Shown here one piece after another: positions 5,420 through 43,392 of a DNA stretch of 52,304 nucleotides. The DNA comes from a bacterium (GTDB lineage: Bacteria; Myxococcota_A; UBA9160; SZUA-336), in the NCBI GenBank assembly GCA_024226335.1, contig JAAELY010000170.1, forward strand, positions 1 to 52,304, given 5' to 3'. Position 1 is the stretch's first letter, and every line of letters starts with the position of its first letter. The notes below the pieces were generated by a model. That model was given only the letters and a program-made list of their open reading frames with translations. It was not told the DNA's origin and made no database searches. The position numbers and the translations under genes are program-made.

Positions 5420-5444
5420 CCGTTTTCTCCTTTGGGGTTCATTT

Positions 5445-6189: not shown

Positions 6190-6239
6190 TCTGGCCTCGC
6201 TTCGAGATCGGTCGCTCAAGCGTCGGGCTTCTGACTCCG

Positions 6240-6605: not shown

Positions 6606-6684
6606 CAGGCGCGGGCTGCGTTTGTTGCGCCCGTTGCGCTGTAACGAAAGAGCATCCCCGTCGGAACCAGAACTCCGAGGTGAG

Positions 6685-7035: not shown

Positions 7036-7126
7036 TCCCCCAAGGTTCTGCCTTCAATCCAGTCTATCGGCAGGTCTGCGAAAGAGAGTCGGGTGGAGAT
7101 CACATTCCAGCGGTGATCGGCATCAC

Positions 7127-8257: not shown

Positions 8258-8261
8258 CCCA

Positions 8262-9440
8262 CTATTCCTTGTAGTTGGGCATCTGGAGCCCGGCCATCGC
8301 GATGATGTCGCGTTGCACTTCGTTGGTTCCGCCGCCGAACGTCAGGATGAGTGCGGAGCGATACATGCGTTCGATTCGACCCTGAATAACCGCACCCGGT
8401 GAGCTGCGTTCCAACTTTCCGACAGAACCCAGGATTTCCAGCAACCAGCGGTAGGCGTCGACGAAGAATTCGCTTGCGAAGACCTTGACCGTCGAAGCTG
8501 CTGCCGGGTGCAGAGTGCTGTGCGTGAGCGTCCAGGCTTGCTTCCAGAGCATGAGCTTGATCGCCTCGCCACCCGCGTGTGCGCGTGCAAAGTTCTGTCG
8601 AACCCAGGGCTGGTCGATCACACGGCGCCCGTCCGCCAGCTTGGTCTCCTGTGCCCACTCGCGGAGTTCGGCCTGCATGCGTTGAAAAGGCCCGATCGGG
8701 AACAGCGAGACGCGCTCGTGGTTCAACTGGCTGGTGATCAATCCCCAGCCGTTGTTCTCGCCGCCGACCAGATAGTGAGCGGGCACGCGGACGTTGTCGT
8801 AATAGGTGGCATTCGTTCGCACGTCGGCCATCGTGCGGATTTCGGTCAGCTTGAACCCCGGCGCCGTTGTGGGGACGATCAACATCGAAATACCGCGGTG
8901 CTTTTTCACGTCGGGATCGGTGCGCGCGGCCAGCCAGATGTAGTCGGCGAAGTCGGCCAGACTCGTCCAGGTCTTCTGTCCGTTGATCACCCACTCGTCG
9001 CCTTCGCGATGGGCCTGGGTGGTGAGGCTCGCCAGATCGGTGCCCGCGGCGGGTTCCGAGTAACCGATCGCGAAGTGCAGCTCGCCGGCCAGGATTCTCG
9101 GCAGAAAATCTGCTTTGAGCTCTTCGCTGCCGAATTTCATGAGTGTTGGGCCGACTGTGCCCAGGGTGAGGAAAGGCAGTGGGTAGCCAACGCGCTGGAC
9201 CTCGTCGGCGAAAATGTACTGCTCCAGCGGCGTGCGCCCCTGTCCGCCGTACTCCTCCGGCCAGCCGATCCCGAGCCAGCCGTCCGCACCCATCTTCTTG
9301 AGGGCCTTGCGGTATTCGGGGCCACCGCCTTCGCCGCCCGCCGCGAGTTCCGCTTTCAACTCGCTGGTCATCAGGTCGGCGAAGTAGCTGCGCAGTTCCT
9401 CGCGCAGGGTCTTCAATTCCGGGGTCAGATCGATGTACAT
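8262..9440 (-). CDS. Acyl-CoA dehydrogenase, alpha-type partner subunit
   Basis: A 392-residue acyl-CoA dehydrogenase. The helical domain holds WPEEYGGQGRTPLEQ, the middle domain IGYSEPAAGTDLASL and GQKTWTSLADFADY (the FAD Trp/Thr loop), and the C-terminus FGGGTNEVQRDIIA. These are the strong FAD motifs missing from the downstream partner. ATG 9440 is preceded by a GGGAGAGAGG ribosome-binding site; upstream in-frame sequence is not ACAD-like. It is first in a two-gene operon, and a KstR-like palindrome lies 60 bases upstream at 9500-9513, so regulation by a TetR-type repressor is likely. Confidence 0.88.
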   Translation of the reverse strand: MYIDLTPELKTLREELRSYFADLMTSELKAELAAGGEGGGPEYRKALKKMGADGWLGIGWPEEYGGQGRTPLEQYIFADEVQRVGYPLPFLTLGTVGPTLMKFGSEELKADFLPRILAGELHFAIGYSEPAAGTDLASLTTQAHREGDEWVINGQKTWTSLADFADYIWLAARTDPDVKKHRGISMLIVPTTAPGFKLTEIRTMADVRTNATYYDNVRVPAHYLVGGENNGWGLITSQLNHERVSLFPIGPFQRMQAELREWAQETKLADGRRVIDQPWVRQNFARAHAGGEAIKLMLWKQAWTLTHSTLHPAAASTVKVFASEFFVDAYRWLLEILGSVGKLERSSPGAVIQGRIERMYRSALILTFGGGTNEVQRDIIAMAGLQMPNYKE

Positions 9441-9499
9441 GGCCTCTCTCCCTGATCGAGGTTCCCAGCGGAGCGCTGATTTCGACTGGATTCCATTAT

Positions 9500-9516
9500 T
9501 AGAACGTGTTTCAATC
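9500..9516 (-). promoter_or_regulatory. KstR-like TetR-family operator, site 1
   Basis: On the minus strand the 17 bases read GATTGAAACACGTTCTA. The last 14 fit the KstR consensus TnnAACnnGTTnnA. The identical 17-mer occurs at 43324-43340. It sits 60 bases upstream of the ACAD pair, within the gap to truD. Confidence 0.6.
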
Positions 9517-9557
9517 GGAGCGGTCAACTTCAGCTTCCGGTAAGCATGTAGCTCCCC

Positions 9558-10715
9558 ATGGCTAAACTCCTGGCTGGCAGTGAACACTTCCTCGTTCATG
9601 AGATCCCCGCCTACGAACCTTCGGGCGACGGCGAACACCTGTACGTCGAGATCGAGAAGCAAGGCCTGACCACCGAGGCCGTCGCGGAGCGATTGGCCCA
9701 GTGCACCGGGCTTCCCCGCGCAAACATCGGCTACGCGGGGCGCAAGGATCGCCACGCGATCACCCGACAACGATTCAGTATTCGGTCCGGTTCCGAAGAG
9801 TCCCTTCAGGGCCTCGCTTCACTGAACCGGGGCGGTGCTCGTATCGAGATCCTGCTCGTCTCGCGCCACCGCAACAAGCTTCGGCGCGGACATCTGCGCG
9901 GGAACCGCTTTCGCCTGTGTCTCGAGGTTTCGCCAGACGAAGTCACCACGTTGCACGAAGTACTGCGGAATCTGCAACACCAGGGACTGCGCAATGGCTT
10001 CGGTCCGCAGCGCTTCGGTTTCAACGGTGCATCGCTGGAGATCGCACGCGCCTGGGCCCGCGCTGATTTCGCCCGCGCCGTGGAATGGGTGATCGACCCG
10101 ACCGGTGTATGGACTCTGAAGGACGAACTCCCCGACGGCTATCGACACGGCGCGGACGGGCGTGTACTTGGCAAGCTTCGCAAGGGTGGTGATCCCCGCC
10201 AGGCCCTGCACTCGGCCGGTCCCGCGTACTTGAAGCTGATTGCGTCGGCCGGGCAGAGCGCGATCTTCAACGCCGTACTCGCGGAACGAGAGCGCGCTGG
10301 ATTGCTCTACACACTCCGCGAAGGAGACCTGGGACGTTCTCCGCGCGGTGGCGTGTTTCGCTGTGCGGCTGAAGATGCCGAGAGCACGACGCGCCGCGCG
10401 CAGCCGGGTGAGCTCGATGCTTTCACGACCGGACCGCTTCCGGGTACCGCGAAACAACGTCCCGATCCCGCAATCGACGCTGAAGAACGCGCGTGGAGCG
10501 CGGACGTGGCTATTGACTGGGCGGCGTTCGAGCGCGAGGGGGTCATGCGCAGTCCTGGGGAACGCCGGCCCCTGCTGGTCCCGTTCCTTGAAACGCCGGA
10601 AGTCGAGGTCGAGGGAGAACGCTGCTGGCTGCAGTTCGCACTCCGCTCCGGAAGCTACGCAACGGAAGTACTGCGGCAGGCGGGTATCGATTTGCCCCTG
10701 AACCGCGCTACCTGA
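9558..10715 (+). CDS. truD: tRNA pseudouridine(13) synthase
   Basis: A 385-residue TruD enzyme that isomerises uridine 13 in tRNA(Glu). The catalytic motif GYAGRKDRHAITRQ is at residues 58-71, with Asp64 as nucleophile, and the family motif NGFGPQRFGFNG lies near 145-157. The TruD insertion domain follows, then a C-terminal return to the catalytic fold. Slightly longer than E. coli TruD (349). It stands next to fatty-acid genes by chance and shares no obvious function with them. Confidence 0.94.
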   Translation: MAKLLAGSEHFLVHEIPAYEPSGDGEHLYVEIEKQGLTTEAVAERLAQCTGLPRANIGYAGRKDRHAITRQRFSIRSGSEESLQGLASLNRGGARIEILLVSRHRNKLRRGHLRGNRFRLCLEVSPDEVTTLHEVLRNLQHQGLRNGFGPQRFGFNGASLEIARAWARADFARAVEWVIDPTGVWTLKDELPDGYRHGADGRVLGKLRKGGDPRQALHSAGPAYLKLIASAGQSAIFNAVLAERERAGLLYTLREGDLGRSPRGGVFRCAAEDAESTTRRAQPGELDAFTTGPLPGTAKQRPDPAIDAEERAWSADVAIDWAAFEREGVMRSPGERRPLLVPFLETPEVEVEGERCWLQFALRSGSYATEVLRQAGIDLPLNRAT

Positions 10716-10771
10716 GCCCGTTCGAAGCTCGCGCGTCTGCGTGGCCTCGAAGACCAGGCGGAGTTCATAGA

Positions 10772-12442
10772 TTGGGTATCCAGGAGATCGAAGCTCAGCT
10801 CACCGGCCCCGGCGGTCCATTCGAACTCGCCGAAGAAGACGTGCTCGGTGAGACGCAAGCGGTGTTCAGGAATCGCGCCGGCAACCTGCGCGAACTCCTC
10901 GCCCAGTCTGCAGAACGAGGAGATGCCGAGTACATCGTGTACGAGGATCGTCGTATCACGTTCGCGCAGCACGCCCGTCAGGTGGCGTCGGTCGCGCGCG
11001 CACTGCAAGAACGCTTCGATGTGCGCAAGGGCGATCGCGTGGCGATCCTGGCTGCGAATTGTCCAGAGTGGATCATCAGCTACTGGGCCGTGACGAGCCT
11101 GGGTGCAATCGCGGTCGGCCTGAACGGCTGGTGGGCGGCCGACGAGATCCTCTACGGCCTTGCCGATAGTGAGCCGAAGCTTCTGATCGGCGATCGAAAA
11201 CGCATCGCACGGCTCGCTGGAGAAGACGTCGGCGTACCCGTCGTCGAAATGGAAGCCGAGTTCAGGGAGCTCGTGCAGTACGCGCCCAATGCGGAGTTGC
11301 CCGAGACCGCGATCGACGAAGACGATCCCGCCTCGATCCTGTACACCAGCGGCACGACCGGCCGACCCAAGGGGGCCGTCGCAAGCCATCGCAATCTGAT
11401 TGCGGCACTCGGTCTGCAGTTCTTACACGGGCTGCGGGCGATGCTGCTCGCCGCGGAGCGCGGCATTCAGGCATCCGGTCCGCGCCGGCCGACCTGCGTG
11501 CTCGTGACCAGTCCGCTCTTTCACGTTTCGGGGTTGTACACGGGCGCTCTGATGATGCTCGCGAGTGGTTCAAAAACCGTCTGGCGTTCCGGTCGCTTCG
11601 ATCCCGTCGACGTGATGCGCCTGGTCGAAAAGGAAGAGGTCACGAACTGGTCTCCGATGGGCGATATGGCGCACAGGGTCCTCAACCACCCCGACCTCGC
11701 GAAGTACGATCTATCCAGCCTGATCGGCATCGGTTCCGGCGGTGCACCCCTGAGTGCCGATCTGATGCAGCGCATTCGCAAGCAGTTCCCGGTCGCAGGT
11801 GCGGGCATGGGGACCGGTTACGGTCTGACGGAGTCGGGTGCGATCGCGACGATCGCCTGGGCCGACGAACTCGAGAAATTCCCGGCCACGGTCGGACGCC
11901 CTCTGCCCAGCGTGCAGGTCGAGATCCGAGATGAAAAAGGCCGCACCCTCCCCGATGGACGAGAGGGCGAGGTATGTATCCGCAGCCCGTTGATCATGCT
12001 CGAGTACTGGCGCAATCCGAAGGCGACTTCAGAGACGATTGGAGCGGGTCGCTGGCTGTTCACGGGCGACGTCGGCCGTATCGAAGACGGGCGCCTGTAC
12101 ATCAACGCGCGCGCGCGCGATCTGATCCTGCGCGGCGCCGAGAACATCTATCCGGTGGAGATCGAGCACCGGCTCGAAGTTCACCCAGACGTCGAAGAGG
12201 CGGCCGTCGTCGGTGTCGACCATCCGGAACTTGGCCAGGAGGTGAAGGCCTTCGTCGTCGCGCGTGCAGGTGTGAAGCTCGACACGGACGCCCTGGCGCT
12301 CTTCGTGGGCAAAACCCTGGCCACTTACAAGGTGCCCGCACACTGGGAGCTGCGCGACGCCCCCTTGCCCCGCAATGCAACGGGCAAGGTGCTCAAGCAG
12401 GTGCTCGCCGGTGAGGCGGAGAACAGCTTCGTTGCCGAGTAG
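10772..12442 (+). CDS. Acyl-CoA synthetase (class I adenylate-forming)
   Basis: A 556-residue AMP-dependent acyl-CoA ligase activating a carboxylic acid via acyl-AMP. The P-loop YTSGTTGRPKG is at residues 191-201, the A5-like GTGYGLTESG near 348, the hinge region FTGDVGRIEDGRLYINARARD near 430-450, GAENIYPVEIE after it, and a C-terminal PRNATGKVLKQ with the catalytic Lys. Translation probably starts at TTG 10772, with CAGGAG close downstream rather than upstream, so the exact start is uncertain. It is followed at 47 bases by a second ligase; both likely serve the same degradation pathway. Substrate unknown (fatty acid, aromatic or steroid side-chain acid). Confidence 0.88.
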   Translation: MGIQEIEAQLTGPGGPFELAEEDVLGETQAVFRNRAGNLRELLAQSAERGDAEYIVYEDRRITFAQHARQVASVARALQERFDVRKGDRVAILAANCPEWIISYWAVTSLGAIAVGLNGWWAADEILYGLADSEPKLLIGDRKRIARLAGEDVGVPVVEMEAEFRELVQYAPNAELPETAIDEDDPASILYTSGTTGRPKGAVASHRNLIAALGLQFLHGLRAMLLAAERGIQASGPRRPTCVLVTSPLFHVSGLYTGALMMLASGSKTVWRSGRFDPVDVMRLVEKEEVTNWSPMGDMAHRVLNHPDLAKYDLSSLIGIGSGGAPLSADLMQRIRKQFPVAGAGMGTGYGLTESGAIATIAWADELEKFPATVGRPLPSVQVEIRDEKGRTLPDGREGEVCIRSPLIMLEYWRNPKATSETIGAGRWLFTGDVGRIEDGRLYINARARDLILRGAENIYPVEIEHRLEVHPDVEEAAVVGVDHPELGQEVKAFVVARAGVKLDTDALALFVGKTLATYKVPAHWELRDAPLPRNATGKVLKQVLAGEAENSFVAE

Positions 12443-12489
12443 AGCGCAACCCGCCGTGAGCTTCGGGGATTCCTGTTAGGATCGGCCGC

Positions 12490-13953
12490 ATGCAGATGTC
12501 TTTTGGACGAGCTTTCGGCTGGTTGTCCGAGCAGGCGCCCGATTTCGAGGCGATCGTGTTCGAAGACCGAAGCGCCACGCGCGCAGAACTCGAACGCCGT
12601 TCCAATCGCCTGGCTCGCGCTTATCGGGAAATGGGTGTGAAGGAGGGCGATCTGGTCACGATCGCATTGCCCAACTCGATCGAGTTCTTCGAGGTCGTGC
12701 TCGCCGTCTGGAAGCTGGGAGCTACGCCTTCTCCGATCTCCTCGTATCTGCCGGAAATCGAGCGACGCGCGATCATCGAGACGACGAACCCCGCACTCCT
12801 GATCGGAGCGCAACCGGGAGAACAGTCCGCTCGAGTCAGCCTCGTTGCGGGATTTGAACCCGACACAGCGCTCTCCGACGCGATCCTGCCCGAGGTTACG
12901 CCCGAGTGTGCGCGCGCCATGACCTCAGGGGGAAGCACCGGTCGGCCCAAGGTGATCGTCGAGAAGACGCCAGGAGTGACGGATCCCGAAGTCGCAGAGA
13001 ACGGCATGCGCGTCGGGGGAACGACTCTGGTTCCCGGACCGCTGTACCACGCTGGACCTTTCATCACATCCTGGCAGACGCTCTTCTCGGGGGGGCGCAT
13101 CGTGCTCATGCCCCGTTTTGAACCGGAGGCCTGTCTGCGGCGGATCGAAGAGCAGGGCGTGAGCTGGGTGTTGTTCGTGCCGACCATGATGCAGCGCATC
13201 TGGAAACTGCCAGACGAAGTGCGCGCTCGTTACGATCTGAGTTCACTGGAAGTGGTCATGAGTTCGGGAGCGGCGAGTCCGGATTGGCTCAAGCGCGCCT
13301 GGATTGATTGGTTGGGTCCGGAGAAGATCATGGAAGCCTACGGCGGCTCCGAACGCATCGGCGGTACGCTGATCTCGGGCAGCGAATGGCTCGAACACCC
13401 CGGCTCGGTCGGCAAGCCCACCGCCGGGCGCAAGGTGCGCATCCTCGATTCGGCGGGGAAGGACGTTCCCACCGGAGAGATCGGTGAGGTCTATATGATG
13501 CCGCCGGGCGGGCAGGGCAGCACCTATCGCTACATCGGTGCGCAAGCCCGGTCGACCGACGACGGTTGGGAGACATTGGGCGATATGGGTTACCTGGATG
13601 AGGATGGCTATCTCTACCTGGCCGATCGCAAGACCGACATGATCGTGACCGGCGGAGCCAATGTGTATCCCGCCGAAGTCGAAGCCGCGATCGACGCCTA
13701 TCCGACCGTGCGCTCCAGTGCAGTCATCGGCCTGCCCGAAGAAGACCTGGGTCTTGCTGTGCATGCGATCGTCGACGCGCCCGACGGAGTGACGGACGAC
13801 CAGCTGCGCGCCCATCTTTCCGAACACCTCGTGCGTTACAAGATCCCGCGCAGTTTCGAATACGTGAAACAGCCGCTGCGCGACGATGCTGGTAAGGTGC
13901 GCCGCTCGGCGCTGCGCGAAGCGCGCATACGCGAAGCACAAGAATCCGACTGA
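12490..13953 (+). CDS. Acyl-CoA ligase, divergent (bile-acid-CoA-ligase-like group)
   Basis: A 487-residue AMP-forming ligase, only distantly related to its neighbour. The P-loop is TSGGSTGRPK (residues 145-154). The GGSERIGGTLISG region replaces the usual YGxTE motif, and GDMGYLDEDGYLYLADRKTDM and TGGANVYPAEVE are the hinge and C-domain motifs. The terminal catalytic Lys lies in DDAGKVRRSALRE. The shortened N-domain and SGGSTG P-loop recall ligases annotated as bile acid-CoA ligase (BaiB-like) or FadD types acting on rings or side chains, but this is from memory of motifs. It probably forms one transcript with the ligase upstream and the SnoaL-like gene downstream. Confidence 0.82.
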   Translation: MQMSFGRAFGWLSEQAPDFEAIVFEDRSATRAELERRSNRLARAYREMGVKEGDLVTIALPNSIEFFEVVLAVWKLGATPSPISSYLPEIERRAIIETTNPALLIGAQPGEQSARVSLVAGFEPDTALSDAILPEVTPECARAMTSGGSTGRPKVIVEKTPGVTDPEVAENGMRVGGTTLVPGPLYHAGPFITSWQTLFSGGRIVLMPRFEPEACLRRIEEQGVSWVLFVPTMMQRIWKLPDEVRARYDLSSLEVVMSSGAASPDWLKRAWIDWLGPEKIMEAYGGSERIGGTLISGSEWLEHPGSVGKPTAGRKVRILDSAGKDVPTGEIGEVYMMPPGGQGSTYRYIGAQARSTDDGWETLGDMGYLDEDGYLYLADRKTDMIVTGGANVYPAEVEAAIDAYPTVRSSAVIGLPEEDLGLAVHAIVDAPDGVTDDQLRAHLSEHLVRYKIPRSFEYVKQPLRDDAGKVRRSALREARIREAQESD

Positions 13954-22464: not shown

Positions 22465-23370
22465 TCATTCGCTTCGCAGCTGATCGGGTGATCGTATGTC
22501 CTGATCCTCGCCGAATCCCCGAAGGGTCGAGTCCCCGTCCACGATCTCCCACTCGCTGAAACTCATCCACGCGAACATGCCTGGCGTGGCCTGGCTCGCG
22601 AGTCGGCTGCGACAGCGGCCGCGCGCGTGGAGTTCGCGGCCAAGCGCGTCGGTGGCTTCGATCTCGACGCGCTCGGGCCAACCCGCAGAATTGCGATCGA
22701 CACGCCGCAGACCTCGCACGAGGTCGGCCTTCTTTCCGTCGCGCAACAGGAACCCCGCGATCACGACGTCGGCACCCTCGTGGTGCCGGGCCATCGCCAT
22801 GAAGCCGTCGCGCTCTGATACAAGTCCGTAGCTGTAACTCGAGCGCGTGCTCTTGAGATCATCCCGTACGTGCCAGGTCCTGTCCCGCATTGCCAGGCAG
22901 TCGATTTCGATCTTCTCGCCAGCGAGCACGACCTCGCCACGCACGCTACACGGTTGGTCGAGGTGGCCGCGACCGCCGCCGATTCCCACGCCGTGCGGTT
23001 GCACCAGTCCCTGGTACTCCAATTCGACCCGAAGCAGATCGCCATCCTCGTACTGGACGCGGTACCTCTCCAGCGGATCGAGCATCTGGTAGTGCAGTCC
23101 CCCCAACACGAGATCGGTCAGCTCATCCTTCGGCATGGCCAGGTGCCATAACGAACGGTGGTAGCGAGCGCGCCAGGGCTCGATCGCATCGGCGTCCCAG
23201 AGCGTGACAGTGAGCGAGGCCACGCCGAGGTTCGGACGGAACACCGGATAGAACGTCCCGGAGAGGTTCCGCTCCGGTTGGTCGAAGGAGAACCAGCAAG
23301 TTTCAGTCCAGAACGGTTCGTCGCCGGTAGGCAGATGAAATTGATCGTCCTGCTCGCTGACCTCGGTCAT
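22465..23370 (-). CDS. DUF7064-type (AttH/CrtC-like) protein
   Basis: A 301-residue protein, probably a two-lobed lipocalin-like beta structure of the AttH/CrtC (hydroxyneurosporene-hydratase-like) group often labelled DUF7064/7065. Features: the N-terminal WTETCWFSFDQPERNLSG, FRPNLG, and the strict MRDRTWHVRDD box at residues 161-171, which recurs as TRDRSWGVR in the 46914-48041 protein. Assignment to the family is from motif memory. It ends the acyl-CoA operon and is convergent with the phosphotransferase gene. Function is not known; a lipid- or terpenoid-acting role is plausible. Confidence 0.65.
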   Translation of the reverse strand: MTEVSEQDDQFHLPTGDEPFWTETCWFSFDQPERNLSGTFYPVFRPNLGVASLTVTLWDADAIEPWRARYHRSLWHLAMPKDELTDLVLGGLHYQMLDPLERYRVQYEDGDLLRVELEYQGLVQPHGVGIGGGRGHLDQPCSVRGEVVLAGEKIEIDCLAMRDRTWHVRDDLKSTRSSYSYGLVSERDGFMAMARHHEGADVVIAGFLLRDGKKADLVRGLRRVDRNSAGWPERVEIEATDALGRELHARGRCRSRLASQATPGMFAWMSFSEWEIVDGDSTLRGFGEDQDIRSPDQLRSE

Positions 23371-23423
23371 GATTCTCCTCTGGGCGAGTCCACGCATCGC
23401 CGGAGTAGATTCACCATCGACTT

Positions 23424-24194
23424 CTACTCGGATTGCTGGGACTTCGAAGCGCGTAGCTTGCGCAGTTCCTCGCTCTGTTCCTGCTCGTTGCGCATCGCAT
23501 CGGCCATTGAATTCGCGCTGCCGAAGTCGAGCGCGCGCTTGGCTGCGGCCAGTACCTCGGGGTCGATCTCTGCGAGTGCACGGGCCCACTCGCGGGCTTC
23601 CTTCATCAGTTCGTCGCCGGGCACGGACTTGTTGATCAAGCCGATACGCTCGGCTTCGGGCGCGAGTACGATCTTCGCCGTGAGCACCAGTTCGCGCGCT
23701 TTCGCAGGACCGACCAATCTGGGCAGGAGATGAGTGCTGCCGAGTCCGGGCAGGATGCCCAGCTTGGCAAAGGTCAGTCCGATCTTCGCGTGATCTGCGG
23801 CGATGCGCAGATCGCAGGGCAGGACCATCGTCACACCCACGCCGATGGCTGCGCCATTGATTGCGGCGATCACCGGCTTGGGGAATTCGACCAGGTCGAG
23901 GGGTAGCTTCTTCAGGAAGTCTTCCTCGCCTAACTTCGCACTCTGCGATGGTTTGGCGCCTGACTGATGCGCCTTCAGGTGTTCCAGGTCGACGCCTGCG
24001 CAGAAGCCGCGGCCCGCACCCGTCAGGATCACGACTCTAAGCGCATCGTCGGCGCGGATGCGTGAGAAGGCATCGACGACCTCATCCCCCATCTCGGTGG
24101 TGTAGGCATTCAGCTTGTCGGGACGGTTCAATGTGATCGTGGCGATGGCTTCGTCACACTCGAAACGGATATTTCGGTAGTCCGGTGCGCCCAT
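23424..24194 (-). CDS. Enoyl-CoA hydratase/isomerase family protein (crotonase), catalytic Glu pair absent
   Basis: A 256-residue crotonase-fold protein. CoA-binding and oxyanion-hole motifs are clear: TLNRPDKLNAYT, GAGRGFCAGVDL and AAINGAAIGVGVTMVLPCD. The two glutamates of classical hydratases (rat Glu144 and Glu164) are replaced by Thr122 and Phe142, so it is probably not an ordinary 2-enoyl-CoA hydratase; isomerase, hydrolase or a ring-cleaving role are options. It starts in the stop of the preceding crotonase gene (TGATG). The frame upstream of 24194 lies inside that gene and is not coding. Confidence 0.86.
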   Translation of the reverse strand: MGAPDYRNIRFECDEAIATITLNRPDKLNAYTTEMGDEVVDAFSRIRADDALRVVILTGAGRGFCAGVDLEHLKAHQSGAKPSQSAKLGEEDFLKKLPLDLVEFPKPVIAAINGAAIGVGVTMVLPCDLRIAADHAKIGLTFAKLGILPGLGSTHLLPRLVGPAKARELVLTAKIVLAPEAERIGLINKSVPGDELMKEAREWARALAEIDPEVLAAAKRALDFGSANSMADAMRNEQEQSEELRKLRASKSQQSE

Positions 24195-25000
24195 CACGTT
24201 TTGTCCGAGTATGGTGCCCAGCGCGGCTTGCGCTTTTCGACGAAGGCCTTGGCTCCCTCGTCGAGGTCCGGGTGTGAAGTGTGTTCGTCGATTGCGGCCC
24301 AGGTGCGTTCGAGTGCTTCGTCCAGGCCCGTATCCAGTCCCTGCCAGAGCGCTTTCTTGGTTCGCGCCAATGCCGTGGGCGAGTGTCGCGTCATCATCTC
24401 GGCGAGTTGTCGTGCGCGCGGCATGACCTGATCGGGGGGCAGGACTTCGCCTACCAGTCCGAGTTCCAGTGCTTGCTGCGCGCTCATGCGCTCCGCACCG
24501 CCGAGCAAGGCCATGCGCATCACGGCTTCGAATGGAATGCGTCTCGTGAGTCCGACCGGCTCCAGGCCTGCGATCAATCCGACTTTTACATGCGTATCGA
24601 AGAAACTCGCCTGCTCCGAACACACGATCAGATCGCTGTCACTGATGAAGTGCAGTCCACCGCCGTTGACCATCCCATTGACCGCCGTGATTACGGGTTT
24701 CCAGCACTTGTTCTGGATCGCGGTCAACTGGAACCACGGTGCGTCCTCGCGCGACATCCCCGTGGTGTCCTGGGTCTCGCCCGCGGCCACGTCCGCCACG
24801 TCCATGCCGGTACAGAACGCCTTTTCACCCGCGCCCGTGACGATCGCACAAACGACCTGGCCGTCGGACTTCACATCCTCCCAGGCCTGCTTCAGTTCGT
24901 GCGCCATTGTCAGGTTGAACGCGTTGTAGACCTTCGGACGGTTCAGGGTGATGGTTGCGACCCCGTCGCTCTTCTCGTAGAGCAGCGTTTCGAAACTCAT
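24194..25000 (-). CDS. Enoyl-CoA hydratase/isomerase family protein (crotonase), two His in place of catalytic Glu
   Basis: A 268-residue crotonase-fold protein. Motifs: TLNRPKVYNAFN, GAGEKAFCTGMDV, AVNGMVNGGGLHFISDSD, and the FFDTHVKVGLIAG turn. At the two catalytic glutamate positions it has His117 and His137, which is unusual and argues against plain hydration; a His-based active site would be of interest. It lies between the thiolase (33-base gap) and a second crotonase in the long operon. A ribosome-binding site (AGACC-ish) is weak. Confidence 0.86.
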   Translation of the reverse strand: MSFETLLYEKSDGVATITLNRPKVYNAFNLTMAHELKQAWEDVKSDGQVVCAIVTGAGEKAFCTGMDVADVAAGETQDTTGMSREDAPWFQLTAIQNKCWKPVITAVNGMVNGGGLHFISDSDLIVCSEQASFFDTHVKVGLIAGLEPVGLTRRIPFEAVMRMALLGGAERMSAQQALELGLVGEVLPPDQVMPRARQLAEMMTRHSPTALARTKKALWQGLDTGLDEALERTWAAIDEHTSHPDLDEGAKAFVEKRKPRWAPYSDKT

Positions 25001-25033: not shown

Positions 25034-26191
25034 TCAGGGCAGGCCCAGGATCGCGATACCGCACGCGGTGGGATGTCCACCGATATTGTGACTCAAGGCG
25101 ATCTGGGGATTCTTCACCTGACGCCCCTCGGCACGCCCCTGTAACTGAAGCACGTTCTCGTAGAGCATACGCACTCCGGTAGCACCCGTGGGATGGCCGA
25201 AGGTCTTCAGGCCTCCGTCCGTGTTCACCGGCAACTCCCCCGTCAGTTCGAACACGCCGTCTTTCACCAGATGGCGGGCCTCACCCTTCTCACAGAATCC
25301 CAGGTCTTCGTAGCTCAATAACTCCGTCAGTGTGAAGCAATCGTGCAATTGCGCCACGTCGATCTGCTCGCGCGGATTTGTGATGCCGGCCTGCTCGTAG
25401 ACGTCCTTGGCGGCCCAACCCGTGGGTTTCCACGACAGGAAGTCGTTACTCGGATCCTTCTGAGGATTGGGGCCTGCGATCACCGTGACGCCCTTCACCA
25501 GCACGGGCTTTTCGCTGTAGTTCTTTGCCAGATCGGCACGCGTGATGATCGCGGCGGCGGCGCCGTCGGTCTGGGCACAACAGTCGTACAGGCCGAATGG
25601 CCACGAGACCATGCGTGCATTCAATGCGTCTTCGATCGTGATCTCGCGCTTCAAGAACGACAGGGGGGCGAGCGTTCCGTTGTGGTGATTCTTGACCGCG
25701 ATGCGCGCGAGGTCCTCGCGGCTGGCCCCGAACTTGTCGAAGTAGGTGGCGGCGCAGAGCGAGAACCAGCTGGCCGGAGTCTTGGGAAGATCCCGAACGC
25801 CGTCCATCATGACCGACGGCCCCGAGACTCCGCGATCCTTCGGCTTGTCATAGCCCAGCACCAGTACCGTGTCGTACATGCCAGCGGCGATCGACATCAC
25901 GCCGCAGCGCAGCGTATCGGTGCCGGTGGCGCAGTAGTTGTAGACCTCGGTAATCGGTTTGTTGAACAGCTTCAACGCGTCGCTGAGTTCGTGCGGTCCC
26001 TTGTTGGAGTAGAGGCTTCCGCTGAAAACCGCATCGATCTGCTCCTGCGGATTTTCGATTCCAGCATCCGCATAGGCTCCATAGGCGGCATCGACGATCA
26101 TATCGGAGGGTGACTGATCCCAGTTCTCGCCGAACTTGCACGCACCGACTCCGACGATCGCGACCTTGTCTCGAATTCCCTCGCGTGCCAT
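25034..26191 (-). CDS. SCP-x/Ltp-type thiolase
   Basis: A 385-residue thiolase of the sterol-carrier-protein-x group, which cleaves 3-ketoacyl-CoA with CoA. The nucleophilic Cys87 is in YNYCATGTDTLR, the His/Cys pair in LHDCFTLTEL (His283, Cys285), the Gly-His-Pro box in GGLKTFGHPTGATG (His333), and the acid/base Cys377 in SHNIGGHPTACG. All catalytic residues are present, unlike the retro-aldolase Ltp2, whose cysteine is lost. It is 3 bases after the HMG-CoA-synthase-like/DUF35 fusion, which suggests a thiolase-DUF35 complex as in archaea and in steroid degraders. Confidence 0.9.
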   Translation of the reverse strand: MAREGIRDKVAIVGVGACKFGENWDQSPSDMIVDAAYGAYADAGIENPQEQIDAVFSGSLYSNKGPHELSDALKLFNKPITEVYNYCATGTDTLRCGVMSIAAGMYDTVLVLGYDKPKDRGVSGPSVMMDGVRDLPKTPASWFSLCAATYFDKFGASREDLARIAVKNHHNGTLAPLSFLKREITIEDALNARMVSWPFGLYDCCAQTDGAAAAIITRADLAKNYSEKPVLVKGVTVIAGPNPQKDPSNDFLSWKPTGWAAKDVYEQAGITNPREQIDVAQLHDCFTLTELLSYEDLGFCEKGEARHLVKDGVFELTGELPVNTDGGLKTFGHPTGATGVRMLYENVLQLQGRAEGRQVKNPQIALSHNIGGHPTACGIAILGLP

Positions 26192-26194
26192 CAG

Positions 26195-27616
26195 CTACTC
26201 CGCATCCTGTGAGGGCGTTGGGGTGCCCTTCCAGTAGTAGTTCGGTCTTCCACCACCCTCGTGGATGCGCCGGAAGGTAAATTCGATCGGCAGGCCGATC
26301 TTCGTGTCTTCCGGAGTGCAGTCCACCAATTGCAGGTGGATTCTCGCGCCGTCGACTTCGCTTATCGTGACGATCGTGGGCGGGTCAGGTGTCGGGAAAA
26401 AGAAGTCGAAGGTAAACGTGACCACCTTGCCGATGCGATCCGAAAGCCGGTACGAATCGAAGTCGTCCTTGGCGAAACAGGTCTCGCAGACGCGCTGGTT
26501 CGGAAACTGCACCGTCTGGCAGGCGCGGCACTTCTGGCCGCGTAGGCTCACGTCCTCGTCGCGCTCTCGGAAGTGGATGGTCGCCGGAAGTCCCGGGTCC
26601 TTGGCGCGTTGCCACTCACTGGCTTCGAGTGTTCGCGACTTCAGGTATTTGTCATAGCTCGACAGCGGACGTCGTCGCTTCAGATGCCAGCCCACGCCGC
26701 GGCGTCGTTCGAGTTTCTCGACGTGCTCGGTCACTGTAAAGGCGGTGGCTTCCGCGCCGTCGCCGTAATTCACTACGAGCAGCCGCTCACCAGGTTGGGC
26801 CGTTTCGAGTGCTGCAGCGAGTTGAATGGGCGCGAAGGCCACGCCCGCGTTGCCGAGTTTTCCGAAAAGCGGATCTTGCAGCTGCTCTCGATTGAGTTTC
26901 AAGGCCCGCACCACACCGCCGTGACTGCGTCTATCCGGGCCGTAGAGCGCCACGCGCTGAAAGTCCGAGATCGCGCTGCCCGTTCTTTCGAGCAGTCCGT
27001 TCACTGCCTCGACGCTGCGCGGCGTATAGCCCTCCTGGACGACGAAACGGTTTTCCCATGTGTGGACGAATGCTTCGCCTTCCCCGCGCCAGACGTCGAC
27101 GATCTCATCGGACACACTGAAGGAATCGTCGAGCGTCGCAATCACATCGCGGTCGCTGATCAGGAAAGCTGCGGCGCCATCGCCGAAGTCCGCTTCCAGG
27201 CTCGATCCAGGCGCGCCCATCCGGCAGTCGCTCGCAATCACGAGTACCGAGCGGGCCGATCCGGCCGTGACCGCGTCTGCTGCGCTGCGGAGCGCGATCG
27301 TGCCGGCGCGCAGCGAACCACTGTGGTCTGCGGTCCGCACATCCCGCCGCAGGTCGAGGGCCTTGGCGATCAGTGCGGCTCCCTGTTTTTCTCGGAACGG
27401 ATAGGTGGTCGAAGCGAAGAAGAGCGCGTCGACCTGGGATCGGTCCAATCCGCGCAGGCAGTTGAGGCCCGCACTCACGGCCATGGTCACGCTGTCCTCG
27501 TCGTTCCAGGCGACAGACTTTTCGGGCCCGTCTTCCTTGGCCGGTCGGCCGGCGATCAAGGCCAGCGGAAGTCGGGTGCGCGGAACGTAGGCGCCGTAGC
27601 ACTGGATACCGGTCAC
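26195..27616 (-). CDS. HMG-CoA-synthase-like/DUF35 OB-fold fusion protein
   Basis: A 473-residue two-domain protein. Residues 1-300 have the thiolase-superfamily (HMG-CoA synthase/KAS III) fold, with GLDRSQVDALFFAST and LVIASDCRMG strands, but the nucleophilic Cys is missing: the segment ADHSGSLRAGT (96-106) has Ser and Leu where Cys is expected. Residues 350-473 form a DUF35 unit, with a zinc ribbon of Cys363, Cys366, Cys377 and Cys380 followed by an OB fold (KVVTFTFDFFF). In archaea these are separate subunits bridging a thiolase and HMG-CoA synthase. Here the fused, probably inactive synthase domain may only dock the neighbouring thiolase. Spacing to that gene is 3 bases. Confidence 0.8.
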   Translation of the reverse strand: MTGIQCYGAYVPRTRLPLALIAGRPAKEDGPEKSVAWNDEDSVTMAVSAGLNCLRGLDRSQVDALFFASTTYPFREKQGAALIAKALDLRRDVRTADHSGSLRAGTIALRSAADAVTAGSARSVLVIASDCRMGAPGSSLEADFGDGAAAFLISDRDVIATLDDSFSVSDEIVDVWRGEGEAFVHTWENRFVVQEGYTPRSVEAVNGLLERTGSAISDFQRVALYGPDRRSHGGVVRALKLNREQLQDPLFGKLGNAGVAFAPIQLAAALETAQPGERLLVVNYGDGAEATAFTVTEHVEKLERRRGVGWHLKRRRPLSSYDKYLKSRTLEASEWQRAKDPGLPATIHFRERDEDVSLRGQKCRACQTVQFPNQRVCETCFAKDDFDSYRLSDRIGKVVTFTFDFFFPTPDPPTIVTISEVDGARIHLQLVDCTPEDTKIGLPIEFTFRRIHEGGGRPNYYWKGTPTPSQDAE

Positions 27617-27620
27617 GGAT

Positions 27621-28511
27621 TCATTTTCCCTTCGGCTTTACGCCGTCGTAGAACGGGTAGGGGGTCTTCATCAGTCCTACGGCTTCCATATGGTTTTTCA
27701 GATGCGTCTCGAAGTGCTTTTCCAGGTCTTCGACGCCCCAGCCGCCTTCTTTGTACATGCCAGTACCGTACCTCGGTTGCTCGAGCATGACGACCCGCTC
27801 GCCACCGCTGCCGAAGATCTGTCCGCTGACCCAGTTTGCTTTATCACCGCACAGGAATGCCACGAAGGCTCCGTTGCGGGTCGGGTCGATGAACGGCAGT
27901 TCGACATCCTTGCCGTCGGGACCCTTGTAGGTCGCCGACATGCGGGTCGTGCCCGTCGGACTGATCGCATTCACGCGAATCCCGTAGCGCGCCAGTTCCA
28001 GGGCCCACGTGTAGGTCAGTGAAGCGATCGCGCCTTTGGAGGCAGCGTAGTTGCTCTGACCGAAATTCCCGAAGTGCGCAGCCGACACCGTGTTGACGAT
28101 CGAGCCGCCCGTGCCCTGATCCTTCATGCGCAGGGCTGCTTCCTGGGAGCACATGAACGTGCCGTGCACGTGGACCCGCAAAACGTCGCCGAACTCATCG
28201 TCGCTCATCTTCAGAAACGAACGGTCGCGCATATTACCCGCGTTGTTCACCAGGATCTGGATACCGCCGAACGAATCCGCACATTGAGCGATCAGCGCCT
28301 GCGCGCCTTCGCGTGTGCCGATGTCGCTATCGTTGACTTCGGCCTTGCCGCCTTGCTCGCAGATCTCGTCGACGACCTTCTGGCCTTCGGTCGGGTCGAT
28401 GTCGTTGACGATCACGGAGGCGCCGTTTGCAGCCAGATGCAGGCAGTGTCCCCGTCCGATGCCCCGTCCCGCGCCGGTCACGACCGCCGCCTTGCCATCC
28501 AGAATTCCCAC
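27621..28511 (-). CDS. SDR, (3R)-hydroxyacyl-CoA dehydrogenase-like (MFE-2/17beta-HSD4 type)
   Basis: A 296-residue short-chain dehydrogenase. It has TGAGRGIG (residues 12-19), NNAGNMRDRSFLKM, which is the phrase typical of MFE-2-type 3R-hydroxyacyl-CoA dehydrogenases, and the catalytic TVSAAHFG serine with Tyr-x-x-x-Lys in SNYAASKGAI. NAD(H) is favoured by an acidic residue at the end of strand 2 (NDID). The longer C-terminus (about 50 residues past the core) is shared with the steroid/bile-acid oxidising branch. It sits between an ACAD and the HMGS/DUF35 gene, matching an oxidation step after hydration. Confidence 0.88.
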   Translation of the reverse strand: MGILDGKAAVVTGAGRGIGRGHCLHLAANGASVIVNDIDPTEGQKVVDEICEQGGKAEVNDSDIGTREGAQALIAQCADSFGGIQILVNNAGNMRDRSFLKMSDDEFGDVLRVHVHGTFMCSQEAALRMKDQGTGGSIVNTVSAAHFGNFGQSNYAASKGAIASLTYTWALELARYGIRVNAISPTGTTRMSATYKGPDGKDVELPFIDPTRNGAFVAFLCGDKANWVSGQIFGSGGERVVMLEQPRYGTGMYKEGGWGVEDLEKHFETHLKNHMEAVGLMKTPYPFYDGVKPKGK

Positions 28512-28520
28512 GTTGGACTC

Positions 28521-29498
28521 CTATTCGCGCGCGTCTGCGAGCGCGATTGCGACCCGTTCCGAATGCTCGTCGATCGAACCGAAACAGTTCTCGAGTACCC
28601 AGCTACGCTTCAGGTAGTAGTGCACCGGAACTTCCCAGGTGAATCCCATTCCGCCGTGAACCTGAATGCAGGCTCCGGAGTTTCGCAAGGCCGCCTCACT
28701 CGAAATGATCTTGGCGCTGCCGACGGCCCGATCGATATCGCCGACCGACGGTTGGTCGAGCGTCGCACCGGCCGCATAAGCGGCCGCGCGTGCGACCTCC
28801 TGCTTGACGAACATATCGGCCATCATGTGCTTCATGGCCTGGAACGAGCCGATGGGCCGTCCGAATTGTTCGCGCTGTTTCGAGTACTCGAGGGCCATTT
28901 CGAGTGTGGCTTCGGCGATCCCCAGAAGCAGGGCCGAGGCGAGCGTCGCGCCTTCCAGTCGCAGGCGCTGCGCGACCTCGGGTCCGGCGATCTTCTCACC
29001 GGCTGGCAGATTCGCGACGTGGTGCAGCGGAGTCAGCGGATCGAGTGGCGTGGCGATCGCTGCGGCCTCGAGTTCCCGCGGATCGATGCGGAACACGCCG
29101 GTGTCGCGCAGTGCGAGCAGCACGTCGAGGCTCTCGAGATGTTCGACGAGCACCGGTTCGATGTCGGCTTCGACTCCGCCCACGACGGTCTCGCCGGTGG
29201 CTGCACCTTTGACCAGACCCGCGGCCAGATGGCTCCAGACCAGAGGCCCTGGAACGACCCGGCGACCGAGTTCGGCAAACACCAGTACGGCGTCGGCCGT
29301 GCCGAGTCCCACACCACCGGCCGACTCGGGTTCGCGAAGATTGAAAACTCCGAGTTCGGCGAGTTCAGTCCACAGGGAGCGATCGAAGCCCGCAGTTTCT
29401 TCGAAGCTCGCCAGTGAATCCAACGGCACGCGTCCGTCGCAGAAAGAACGCACGCCTTCGCGCAGCGCGAGCTGGTCTTCGTCGAGTTGAAAGTCCAT
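28521..29498 (-). CDS. Acyl-CoA dehydrogenase, short partner subunit
   Basis: A 325-residue ACAD homologue. N-terminal MDFQLDEDQLALREGVRSFC, the C-terminal REQFGRPIGSFQAMKHMMADM and IQVHGGMGFTWEVPVHYYLKRS are clear, but the middle beta domain is shortened and lacks the FAD-contact motif, so the chain is about 60 residues shorter than normal. This is the pattern of the beta subunit in heteromeric ACADs of steroid side-chain degradation. It follows the complete ACAD gene by 11 bases. Confidence 0.86.
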   Translation of the reverse strand: MDFQLDEDQLALREGVRSFCDGRVPLDSLASFEETAGFDRSLWTELAELGVFNLREPESAGGVGLGTADAVLVFAELGRRVVPGPLVWSHLAAGLVKGAATGETVVGGVEADIEPVLVEHLESLDVLLALRDTGVFRIDPRELEAAAIATPLDPLTPLHHVANLPAGEKIAGPEVAQRLRLEGATLASALLLGIAEATLEMALEYSKQREQFGRPIGSFQAMKHMMADMFVKQEVARAAAYAAGATLDQPSVGDIDRAVGSAKIISSEAALRNSGACIQVHGGMGFTWEVPVHYYLKRSWVLENCFGSIDEHSERVAIALADARE

Positions 29499-29509: not shown

Positions 29510-30727
29510 TCAGCTTTCCACGGCCGGTCGCGGCGGCGGCGCCGGTCGCGGCTCTCGGGGCAGTCCGAGAATGCGCTCGGAAATGATGTTGCGTTGAATC
29601 TGTGAAGTCCCGGCCGCGATCGTCAGCGAAAGAGCCTGCATCGAGCGCGCCAGAATGCGCTCACTCGGCAGACCCGCGACATCATCCCGACTCAACGCAG
29701 CCCGACCCAGCAGACGCACGCCGAACTCGGTGATGCGCTGGTACAGATCGGTGTAGAACAGCTTGACCGCAGATGCGCCCACGCCCGGAATTCCGGTCTT
29801 GCTCGATTCACACACCGAGAGCTTGACCATCGCCCAGAGTGCGTCGAGTTCAGCGGAGAAATGACCGAGCTGGCGACGCAATGCTCGGTCGTTCCAACCC
29901 TGGGGGCCCTCTGGTGCGCGCCGGGTCAGATCGACGAGCTCGGAAACGAACTGCTTCAGATGGATCATGTCGCTGGCGAAGGCGGCGCCGCGTTCGAAAC
30001 GGAAGGTGACTTCCTTGACGCGCCAGCCGTCGTTTTCTTTTCCGACGCGATTCGAAACCGGAATGCGCACGTTATCGAGGAAGACCTCGCTGAACTCGCC
30101 CTCGCCCGCGAGGGTGCGCAGGGGGCGGATCTCGATGCCCGGGGAATTCATGTCCATGATCAGCCAGGTGATGCCGCGGCTCTTGGCCTCCGGATCGGTG
30201 CGGACCAGCAACTCGCAGTAATCGGCGGCCTGCGCGAACGAACACCAGATCTTGTGACCGCTGACCACGTAGTGATCTCCGTCGACCTCGGCGCGGGTCG
30301 CGAGCGCAGCCAGATCGGAGCCCGCGCCGGGTTCGGAGAATCCCTGACACCAGACCTGTTCACCGGTCAGGATCTGCGGAACGTGGCACTTTTTCTGCTC
30401 TGGCGTGCCTTCGGCAATCAGCGTCGGACCGCCGTGCAGCATGCCGACGAAGTTCACGCCGATGTACGGGGCGTTTACCCGCGCGATTTCTTCGTAGTAC
30501 ACGAGTTGCTCGGTCGGGGAGCCATCGCGACCGCCGTACTCCTTTGGCCAGCTGATCCCCGCGTATCCGGCATCGAAGAGCTTGCGCTGCCAGCCCGTGT
30601 CGTAGGCGCGTCGCGCCGGCCAGTCATTCACCGGCGGTGGGGCGCCGTGAGCGGGCACCTCCCGTTCCAGCCAGGTTCGCAGATCTGCGCGAAATTCCTC
30701 GTCTTTTTCGGAGTAGCGCAAGTCCAC
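29510..30727 (-). CDS. Acyl-CoA dehydrogenase, large partner subunit
   Basis: A 405-residue acyl-CoA dehydrogenase. SWPKEYGGRDGSPTEQLVYYEE, QGFSEPGAGSDLAALATRA, SGHKIWCSFAQAADY and the end GTSQIQRNIISERILGLPR are canonical FAD and substrate motifs. Translation most likely begins at GTG 30727: AGGAGG lies six bases before it, and the protein then starts DLRYSEKDEEFRADLRTWLE as usual. A longer frame to 30769 has no ribosome-binding site. First gene of the eight-gene operon; an inverted repeat at 30744-30764 overlaps its promoter region. Confidence 0.89.
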   Translation of the reverse strand: MDLRYSEKDEEFRADLRTWLEREVPAHGAPPPVNDWPARRAYDTGWQRKLFDAGYAGISWPKEYGGRDGSPTEQLVYYEEIARVNAPYIGVNFVGMLHGGPTLIAEGTPEQKKCHVPQILTGEQVWCQGFSEPGAGSDLAALATRAEVDGDHYVVSGHKIWCSFAQAADYCELLVRTDPEAKSRGITWLIMDMNSPGIEIRPLRTLAGEGEFSEVFLDNVRIPVSNRVGKENDGWRVKEVTFRFERGAAFASDMIHLKQFVSELVDLTRRAPEGPQGWNDRALRRQLGHFSAELDALWAMVKLSVCESSKTGIPGVGASAVKLFYTDLYQRITEFGVRLLGRAALSRDDVAGLPSERILARSMQALSLTIAAGTSQIQRNIISERILGLPREPRPAPPPRPAVES

Positions 30728-30743
30728 GGGGGCCTCCTTGAGA

Positions 30744-30764
30744 TACGATCCGCAGCGTATCGTA
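30744..30764. promoter_or_regulatory. Inverted repeat upstream of the acyl-CoA operon
   Basis: TACGAT-N9-ATCGTA forms a perfect dyad, with GATACG...CGTATC nested in it, 17-37 bases upstream of the GTG at 30727. The place and symmetry fit a TetR-type operator. The 51-base gap to the propeller lipoprotein gene holds nothing else. Confidence 0.5.
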
Positions 30765-30778
30765 AACACCCTACGGCG

Positions 30779-33460: not shown

Positions 33461-34378
33461 CTGAAGTTCGCGGTCCTGCTTCCGACCGATCGCATCGATC
33501 GAGCGGATGAGTTTCTGACAGCGGCCGCCCTTGCCGAGATGGCAAGGGCGGCCGAGTCATTTGGGTTCGACGCATGCTCGGTGACGGACCACCCCATGCC
33601 CGACGATCGCTGGCTGGCCGGCGGCGGACATCACGCGCTCGATCCGTTCGTCGCACTCTCGTTCGCAGCTGCAGCCACGTCGACGATTCGCTTGCAGACG
33701 CAGGTTGCGGTGCTCGCATACCGCAATCCCTTTCTGACGGCCAAAGCGGCTGCCAGCCTGGATGTGCTTTCGGGGGGGCGATTGATTCTGGGCGTAGCTG
33801 CGGGCTATTTGAAGGGCGAATTCGCGGCGCTGGGAGTCGACTTCGAGCAGCGCAACGAACTGACCGACGAAGCGATCACGGCGATCCGCCGCGCCTGGAG
33901 CGAGAGCGGTGTGAAGCTCGAAGGCCGCCACTTCTCCGCGTCGGGCAATACGATGTTGCCGCGCCCGCTGCAACAACCGGGTCCCCCGATCTGGGTCGGA
34001 GGCAATAGTCGCCGGGCCATCCGGCGCGCGGTCGAGTTGGCGGATGGCTGGCTGCCGTTTCCCGCTCCCGCGCAGACAGCCCGCCACCTGCGCACGGCTT
34101 CGCTCGAAACACTCGCCGATCTGCAGAAGGGCATCGACTACGCTCGCGCACACGCGCGCGAGGTCGGGCGCACGACCCCTCTAGACATCAGCTTCGTACC
34201 GTTTGGCTTCGAGATGTCGGCGCGCGGAGCGGTCGATGTATCGGCCTTTTCGCAAACGGTCGAGGATCTACAGAAGTGCGGCGTCACCTGGCTGACCCTG
34301 ACGCTGCCCGCGGAGACCCGCGCGGAGTTCGTCGATCAACTGGAGCGCTTCTCGCCCCTCACAACACGATCGGAATGA
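33461..34378 (+). CDS. LLM-class (luciferase-like) flavin/F420-dependent monooxygenase
   Basis: A 305-residue luciferase-like monooxygenase, TIM-barrel, using FMN or F420. Motifs: GFDACSVTDHPMP, QTQVAVLAYRNPFLTAKAAASLDVLSGGRLILGVAAGYLK and GPPIWVGGNSRRAIRRAVELADGW. The usual N-terminal strand (KFAVLLPTDRI) is present in frame but no ATG, GTG or TTG precedes it before an in-frame stop at 33440, so translation probably begins at CTG 33461; starting at ATG 33539 would delete the first strand. The last codons (34313-34363) are nearly duplicated at 42362-42412. Four bases after DUF1329. Confidence 0.83.
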   Translation: MKFAVLLPTDRIDRADEFLTAAALAEMARAAESFGFDACSVTDHPMPDDRWLAGGGHHALDPFVALSFAAAATSTIRLQTQVAVLAYRNPFLTAKAAASLDVLSGGRLILGVAAGYLKGEFAALGVDFEQRNELTDEAITAIRRAWSESGVKLEGRHFSASGNTMLPRPLQQPGPPIWVGGNSRRAIRRAVELADGWLPFPAPAQTARHLRTASLETLADLQKGIDYARAHAREVGRTTPLDISFVPFGFEMSARGAVDVSAFSQTVEDLQKCGVTWLTLTLPAETRAEFVDQLERFSPLTTRSE

Positions 34379-42361: not shown

Positions 42362-42412
42362 GAGACTCGCGCGGAGTTTGTCGATCAGCGGGAGCGCTTC
42401 TCGCCCTTCACA
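42362..42412 (+). pseudogene. 51-bp remnant of an LLM-gene 3' end
   Basis: These 51 bases are 46/51 identical to 34313-34363, the 3' end of the LLM gene at 33461-34378, and in frame they read ETRAEFVDQRERFSPFT against ETRAEFVDQLERFSPLT. The similarity stops abruptly on both sides. The fragment abuts the end of an unrelated-in-detail LLM gene on the opposite strand. It is best read as a relic of a duplicated or lost LLM gene, or of a conversion event. Confidence 0.72.
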
Positions 42413-43241
42413 GGTAGCTGGTGAATTCGTCCAGAACCGTCATGACCCGATCGCGGGATGCCGACGGCAGGCGCAGCACGGCTTCGCTGACCCCGAGACT
42501 GCGGTAGAACTCCAGTTTGCGTGCGTCCGGCAGGATGCCCATGGGTACGATGTGCAGGCTGCTCGGTTCCCGCTCGCGTTCCTCCATCGCCCGGTGCAGT
42601 TCTGGAATTGCTTCCTTCAGGCCCCTGCCGCCGATCGGGATCCAGCCATCCGCGTACTCGGCGATGTGCGCGAATAGCTTCGGTCCCCGGGCGCCACCGA
42701 TCAGCGTGCGCGGGCGGGGTTGCTGGATGGGCTTGGGCCATTGCCAGCTAGCTTCGAAGGACACGAACTCGCCGTGGAACTCCGCGACTTCGCTCGACCA
42801 CAACGCCTGCATCGCCAGCATCGTCTCGCGCACGCGCGCGCGGCGTCGTTTCACCTCGATGCCGTGATTCTCCATCTCTTCGTGGTTCCAGCCATAGCCG
42901 ATGCCCAGCACCAGGCGGCCCCCGGCCACAAGATCGAGGGTCGCGATTTCCTTGGCCAGTGTGATCGGGTCGTGCTGTGCAACCAGGCCGATGCCGGTCC
43001 CCAGCAGGATCCGCTCCGTGCAGGCGGCCGCCGCAGCCAGGGCGATGTACGGATCGAGACTGCGCAGGTACTCCTCGGATAGCTCTGCGTCGCCGGTCGG
43101 CGCGGGCGTGCGCCGGCTCACCGGAATATGCGTGTGTTCCGGCACGTACAGGGAGTGGAATCCGCGCGCTTCGGCTTCGCGCGCCAGTTCGACCGGGCTC
43201 ATGGAGCGGTCCGTTGCGTGGATTGTGACGCCGATCTTCAT
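42408..43241 (-). CDS. LLM-class (luciferase-like) monooxygenase, second
   Basis: A 277-residue F420/FMN-type luciferase-like enzyme. MKIGVTIHATDRSMSPVELAREAEARGFHSLYVPEHTHIP, GTGIGLVAQHDPITLAKEIATLDLVAGGRLVLGIGYGW and RTLIGGARGPKLFAHIAEYADGWIP are family landmarks. It is clearly a different subgroup from the LLM at 33461 (different N-terminal and C-terminal lobes). Divergent from the indolepyruvate oxidoreductase gene across the KstR-like site at 43324-43340. Confidence 0.9.
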   Translation of the reverse strand: MKIGVTIHATDRSMSPVELAREAEARGFHSLYVPEHTHIPVSRRTPAPTGDAELSEEYLRSLDPYIALAAAAACTERILLGTGIGLVAQHDPITLAKEIATLDLVAGGRLVLGIGYGWNHEEMENHGIEVKRRRARVRETMLAMQALWSSEVAEFHGEFVSFEASWQWPKPIQQPRPRTLIGGARGPKLFAHIAEYADGWIPIGGRGLKEAIPELHRAMEEREREPSSLHIVPMGILPDARKLEFYRSLGVSEAVLRLPSASRDRVMTVLDEFTSYL

Positions 43242-43340: not shown

Positions 43341-43392
43341 TCTTGTGGGACCGTATGGCTTCGGACGAGCACCCCACGGTGTTGGAGCAAAC

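Follow-up and report, generated by a model that had tools for sequence, protein, structure and literature searches.

DUF35 proteins scaffold complexes of the thiolase superfamily, in which they hold a thiolase and a subunit of the HMG-CoA synthase (HMGCS) type together (PMC12329534). In the archaeal acetoacetyl-CoA thiolase/HMGCS/DUF35 complex (PDB 6ESQ), which is biosynthetic, the synthase is active (Cys114, Glu82) and DUF35 is a separate chain. PhlABC from Pseudomonas (PpATase; PDB 5M3K, 9SKH) is likewise biosynthetic and built of three separate chains, the HMGCS-like PhlA, the DUF35 protein PhlB and the catalytic PhlC. PhlA has neither the Cys nor the Glu and lines a cavity beside the thiolase-fold active site, only PhlC residues act in the acyl transfer, and the enzyme (PhlC) is a CoA-independent acyltransferase, not a thiolase (PMC6392133). 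Both the inactivity of PhlA and the fusion of DUF35 to members of the thiolase superfamily were already noted in 2010 (PMC2954200). Two catabolic systems with DUF35 are also described. The benzoylsuccinyl-CoA thiolase BbsAB (PDB 7PXP) has a DUF35 (Zn finger) subunit but is two-component, without an HMGCS-like domain; in the aldolases Sal/Shy and Ltp2/ChsH2 of steroid side-chain degradation (PDB 9MYR, 6OK1), a thiolase-fold enzyme with retro-aldol chemistry is clamped by a DUF35 domain that is fused to a hydratase and not to an HMGCS domain (PMC12329534).

A gene annotated as HMG-CoA synthase, EGO55_13555, is also found among the edc genes of Novosphingobium tardaugens, the best-studied cluster for the (4,5-seco) degradation of estrogens. 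This gene and EGO55_13575 are the only edc genes to which the authors assigned no pathway step, with the comment that the anabolic reaction of an HMG-CoA synthase makes no sense in the breakdown of estrogens (PMC7793797). A search of the text of that paper found no mention of an OB-fold or a Zn-ribbon, and no paper describing an HMGCS/DUF35 fusion was found in a keyword search of the literature.

The window analysed here, a stretch of 52,304 nucleotides forming contig JAAELY010000170.1, encodes the same three modules in two chains. On the minus strand, an ORF of 473 aa with a GTG start (26195-27616) joins an HMGCS-like domain to DUF35, and an SCP2-type thiolase of 385 aa with an ATG start (25034-26191) follows after a gap of 3 bases (26192-26194), exactly as the first-pass annotation had read the two genes. 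The two genes share one frame (QDAE-stop-L-MAREG), and only TAG and one CTG codon lie between them (26192-26197, minus strand).

The architecture of the fusion as a single chain was also borne out. Its HMGCS-like domain (residues ~1-335; 26612-27616), with homology over residues ~2-329, aligned with the archaeal HMGCS 6ESQ_I in phmmer at E=4e-38, and the thiolase fold is assigned from this homology; the scores of 210.5 bits with NCBIfam PRK04262/NF003274 and 160.5 bits with TIGR00748 were below the respective equivalog cut-offs of 244 and 353. The DUF35 domain (residues ~350-465; 26222-26569), delimited by zf-ChsH2 and OB_ChsH2_C, comprises a Cys4 zinc ribbon and an OB fold. The zinc ribbon scored 33.1 bits with PF12172 (zf-ChsH2), above the cut-off of 23.2, the OB fold reached 19.1 bits with PF01796 against a cut-off of 27.1, and the match to 6ESQ_E (E=2e-13) spanned both parts. 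This region also matched ChsH2 (6OK1_B) and PhlB (5M3K_B). The thiolase completed the likeness to the archaeal complex (E 2e-46) and was also similar to that of BbsAB (E 1e-52). As with 6ESQ, each of the three modules was homologous to a subunit of PhlABC (5M3K). The AlphaFold2 monomer model of the fusion, obtained with a shallow alignment of six homologues, was poor (mean pLDDT 53, pTM 0.37). The four cysteines of the zinc ribbon (C363, C366, C377 and C380) were kept in 98-99% of the fusions. Cysteines were missing from the zinc ribbon in the fusions of Sphingomonas paeninsulae (L101) and of one further locus (L078), which suggested that the metal site may be dispensable in some lineages.

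The best-supported reading of this locus, to which a probability of roughly 0.75 was given, is that the fusion is a pseudoenzyme subunit which, together with the downstream SCP2-type thiolase, would form one heteromeric thiolase for ring-derived β-ketoacyl-CoAs in a steroid-type pathway. The acyltransferase nature of PhlC, the absence of EdcB and the two genomes in which the pair is apart were counted against this reading. What is new in this analysis is that the HMGCS/DUF35 fusions make up a single family, that its synthase site has been lost everywhere sampled, that its members have SCP2-type thiolases as partners and that they occupy edc-like steroid cassettes.

The first-pass annotation had placed the replacement of the synthase Cys around residues 99-102, and the alignment to archaeal HMGCS agreed, with the nucleophile Cys114 of the M. 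thermolithotrophicus enzyme (PDB 6ESQ) falling on Leu102 of the fusion (27311-27313). The loss was wider than this single residue: Glu82 of the same enzyme corresponded to Thr70 (27407-27409), and the catalytic His of archaeal HMGCS to Tyr225 (26942-26944), in a column that was set by unfused controls. The alignment contained 82 fusion homologues from the window's class, Sphingomonadales, Rhodococcus/Mycobacterium, Betaproteobacteria and haloarchaea. Column counts showed that Cys, Glu or His was retained at the catalytic columns in 0/82 of them, whereas all three residues were present in 8/8 unfused HMGCS-like controls of the same alignment, a contrast indicating that the loss was due neither to chance nor to misalignment.

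The domain might still be catalytic by means of other residues, as an acyl-CoA hydrolase, a decarboxylase or a second acyl-transfer site in series. Three fusion-specific residues beside the old site would be in keeping with such an activity, namely Arg103 (conserved in 81/82), Thr70 (78/82) and Ser101 (72/82), and their conservation indicated that the dead site is not at liberty to drift. Nevertheless, no replacement nucleophile or base was conserved. The Cys column was occupied by Leu, Thr, Gln, Ser, Val, Pro, Gly or Ala, and the His column by Tyr, Asp, Ala, Pro, Phe and others, so that no new nucleophile was evident in the fusions. In ketosynthase-type decarboxylases, the Cys becomes Gln and the His stays, a pattern that the fusions do not follow. 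Moreover, PhlA, which represents the sister group of the fusions, takes no part in the acyl transfer step (PMC6392133). Residual catalysis was therefore considered unlikely.

The partner thiolase scored 421.8 bits with PRK06157, above the cut-off of 403. When aligned with PDB 6HSJ, it displayed Cys87, the HDCF motif (His283-Asp-Cys285-Phe, residues 283-286) and the GHP motif (Gly332-His333-Pro, residues 332-334), and its description as a fully equipped SCP-x thiolase was thus confirmed. The Cys, HDCF and GHP were also kept by the partner thiolases of the other sampled fusions, where the region was present.

The pairing of the two genes was near-obligate. A thiolase homologous to that of the window started within 200 bp downstream of the fusion in 65/69 loci of the class. 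One of the four remaining loci lay at a contig edge, another had the thiolase 915 bp further on, and in two, belonging to a single genus (G069 and G072), a thiolase homologue with 78-80% identity was located on another contig. In these last two loci (L086 and L039), the thiolase was gone from the operon and an enoyl-CoA hydratase gene came directly after the fusion. The thiolase also adjoined the fusion in all 11 plasmid (non-class) loci that were read in detail. The mirror-tree distance correlation between fusion and thiolase reached 0.96 but was given no weight, as it is for the most part accounted for by shared ancestry, which is also reflected in the adjacency of the genes. In Paraburkholderia PGU19 (L111, 7463-8643), the partner thiolase was unannotated and broken into two frames, possibly by a frameshift or a sequencing error.

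The two genes belong to an operon on the minus strand with the order large acyl-CoA dehydrogenase (ACAD) subunit (29510-30769), small ACAD subunit (28521-29498; best NCBIfam match IpdE2-like, under the cut-off), SDR, probably a 3-hydroxyacyl-CoA dehydrogenase (27621-28511), fusion, thiolase and two enoyl-CoA hydratase family proteins (24194-25000 and 23424-24182). The true gene of the second hydratase is the 3' part of a longer ORF (23424-24623). From one of the ACAD genes onward, this order matched that on p3, a plasmid of the estrogen-degrading Novosphingobium ES2-1, with identities of 43-44% for the fusion, 67% for the thiolase, 54% for the SDR, 51% for the first hydratase and 43% for the second, whose ES2-1 gene is annotated as enoyl-CoA hydratase-related. 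The ES2-1 protein in the same operon place was also a DUF35 fusion without the triad. Operon A of the edc genes, as published for N. tardaugens, has this gene order too (PMC7793797). Judged by its operon position, EGO55_13555 would be the counterpart of the ES2-1 fusion, and this orphan gene gains a testable role, as a subunit that is fused to DUF35 and serves the thiolase next to it without catalysis of its own.

Further genes of the steroid type were found. An EdcC-like protein of the indolepyruvate-ferredoxin-oxidoreductase family (53% identity to ES2-1) is encoded on the plus strand at 43345-46881 and is separated from the cassette by extra genes. It was divergent from the cassette in 15/15 genomes in which it shares a contig with the fusion (that of the window and 14 relatives, which are related and thus not independent counts), mostly at a distance of 3.5-8 kb. 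The edc clusters differ by their estrogen context of EdcB and P450. No match to EdcB, the 4-hydroxyestrone dioxygenase, was obtained in the genome of the window at E<=1e-15; hence, estrogen was not indicated and was not accepted as the specific substrate. The same genome did contain a HIP (steroid C/D-ring) cluster (C150:28000-47999, 2822-13892), collinear with that of ES2-1 and with gene identities of 40-69% (among them IpdA 56%, IpdB 44%, EchA20 64%, ACAD 64%, FadA6-like thiolase 69%, SDR 61% and MaoC 67%), and IpdB homologues were detected in 49/60 related genomes. The edc-like cassette, the EdcC-like gene and the HIP cluster in one genome made it likely, on sequence grounds, that the cassette belongs to a steroid-type pathway, a context added here to the first-pass annotation. 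Edc-like gene sets for steroid degradation are in this way extended to uncultured Myxococcota/Deltaproteobacteria-type MAGs. A promoter scan gave no signal above shuffles.

Instead of a thiolase, the pair could also be a C-acyltransferase like PhlABC, or a lyase of the retro-Claisen/aldol type that acts on ring ketones. The nearest complex with a dead HMGCS is indeed the acyltransferase PhlABC (PMC6392133), and Sal and Ltp2, two relatives bound by DUF35, are aldolases (PMC12329534). However, the partner of the fusion keeps both HDCF and GHP, which are absent from the sampled PhlC-like partner of Priestia and changed in the aldolases (YDHF/YDCY, PMC12329534). The ACAD, hydratase and dehydrogenase needed for a β-oxidation round are, moreover, all provided by the cassette of the window. 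An acyltransferase or lyase was thus regarded as quite unlikely.

The pair was not a one-off, as the first-pass annotation had taken it to be, but a member of a widespread family. Fusion homologues were found in 65/98 related genomes searched, the named relatives being 'Deltaproteobacteria' and Myxococcota MAGs, and some genomes carried a second, more distant copy with 32-42% identity. Outside this one phylum, the census consisted of plasmid-borne copies, which occurred in Sphingobium, Novosphingobium, Sphingomonas, Rhodococcus, Mycobacterium avium, Azoarcus, Paraburkholderia and haloarchaea. All fusions formed a single clade with a support of 99/99, or 100/99 after removing the catalytic columns and long branches. 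Its sister was the unfused, inactive PhlA group, each group being supported at 99-100%, and the fusions fell outside the PhlA clade itself. Intact HMGCS, including the one archaeal HMGCS that the tree contained, lay outside the group of fusions and PhlA (98/93 and 97/91). A topology that placed the archaeal HMGCS with only the fusions was borderline rejected (p 0.049). The simplest history suggested by this tree would be that catalysis was lost once and a single fusion came later, but it is not the only one, since a topology joining the archaeal HMGCS to PhlA was not rejected (p 0.10).

This distribution also bears on the possibility that the fusion is a decaying pseudogene hitch-hiking in the operon, which would account for the loss of every catalytic residue. 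In many genera and phyla the frames were intact and ~450-500 aa long, each of the two domains had invariant residues, and the fusion was retained in the two genomes whose thiolase had moved away; a pseudogene was rejected on the strength of this conservation as very improbable. An active HMG-CoA synthase that receives acetoacetyl-CoA from the thiolase, as its archaeal counterpart does, within an unusual kind of mevalonate pathway would fit the best database name (hydroxymethylglutaryl-CoA synthase) and the three modules shared with the archaeal complex, but was dismissed as hardly conceivable, given that Cys, Glu and His are all lost, the scores are below the equivalog cut-offs and the operon is catabolic.

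In the preferred reading, that of a heteromeric thiolase with the fusion as its non-catalytic subunit, the chemistry would be carried out by the thiolase, with Cys87 as the nucleophile and the Cys of HDCF and the His of GHP in acid/base roles. The substrate would be a bulky ring-derived β-ketoacyl-CoA made by the ACAD, hydratase and SDR of the operon, and this edc-like β-oxidation of the A/B rings would feed the HIP cluster for the C/D rings. The HMGCS domain would be incapable of forming HMG-CoA or of any Cys-based Claisen chemistry. DUF35 would act as a built-in clamp, with the role that it has in the archaeal and PhlABC complexes, now as a covalent part of the dead subunit. The dead domain itself would stabilise the assembly and probably wall off or shape the acyl-CoA cavity. 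The first-pass annotation had suggested a scaffold that only docks the thiolase. The idea of a non-catalytic partner was the best supported, by the family-wide absence of the triad, the near-obligate pairing and the precedent of PhlA. The restriction to docking went too far, because PhlA lines a cavity near the active site (PMC6392133) and the fusion may likewise shape the substrate site. The fusion would be a clear example of an enzyme that has become a structural partner and is joined to a clamp that is a separate chain in its relatives, and the usual annotations, 'HMG-CoA synthase' or 'OB-fold domain-containing protein', suggest the wrong biochemistry for it.

A broader proposal can be made only tentatively. 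An archaeal-type HMG-CoA synthase may have lost its catalytic function once, in ancient times, and so have given rise to the pseudoenzymes of the PhlA and DUF35-fusion types, which would serve as an obligate substrate-chamber subunit of catabolic polycyclic acyl-CoA thiolases across several bacterial phyla and haloarchaea. The dead site would then be part of the ring-binding cavity and not a mere scaffold.

Other genes were observed in the window and in related loci. Two F420/LLM-class luciferase-like monooxygenases are encoded in the window (42408-43241, minus strand, and 33539-34378, plus strand), and in two relatives (L005 and L093) such a monooxygenase gene is flanked by that of the EdcC-like oxidoreductase on one side and the ACAD genes on the other, the place of edcB in estrogen degraders. 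Two acyl-CoA ligases on the plus strand (10772-12442 and 12490-13953) had as their best NCBIfam matches the steroid-24-oyl-CoA synthetase CasG (718.7 against a cut-off of 750) and the bile acid-CoA ligase BaiB (under the cut-off). An Rv3169/DUF7065-family protein, under the curated cut-off, is encoded just downstream of the cassette (22465-23589, minus strand). On the Mycobacterium avium plasmid pP7a (L104) and on a plasmid of Rhodococcus qingshengii (L103), the pairs were located beside an aromatic-ring dioxygenase gene and three enoyl-CoA hydratase genes, neighbourhoods that hint at a different ring substrate.
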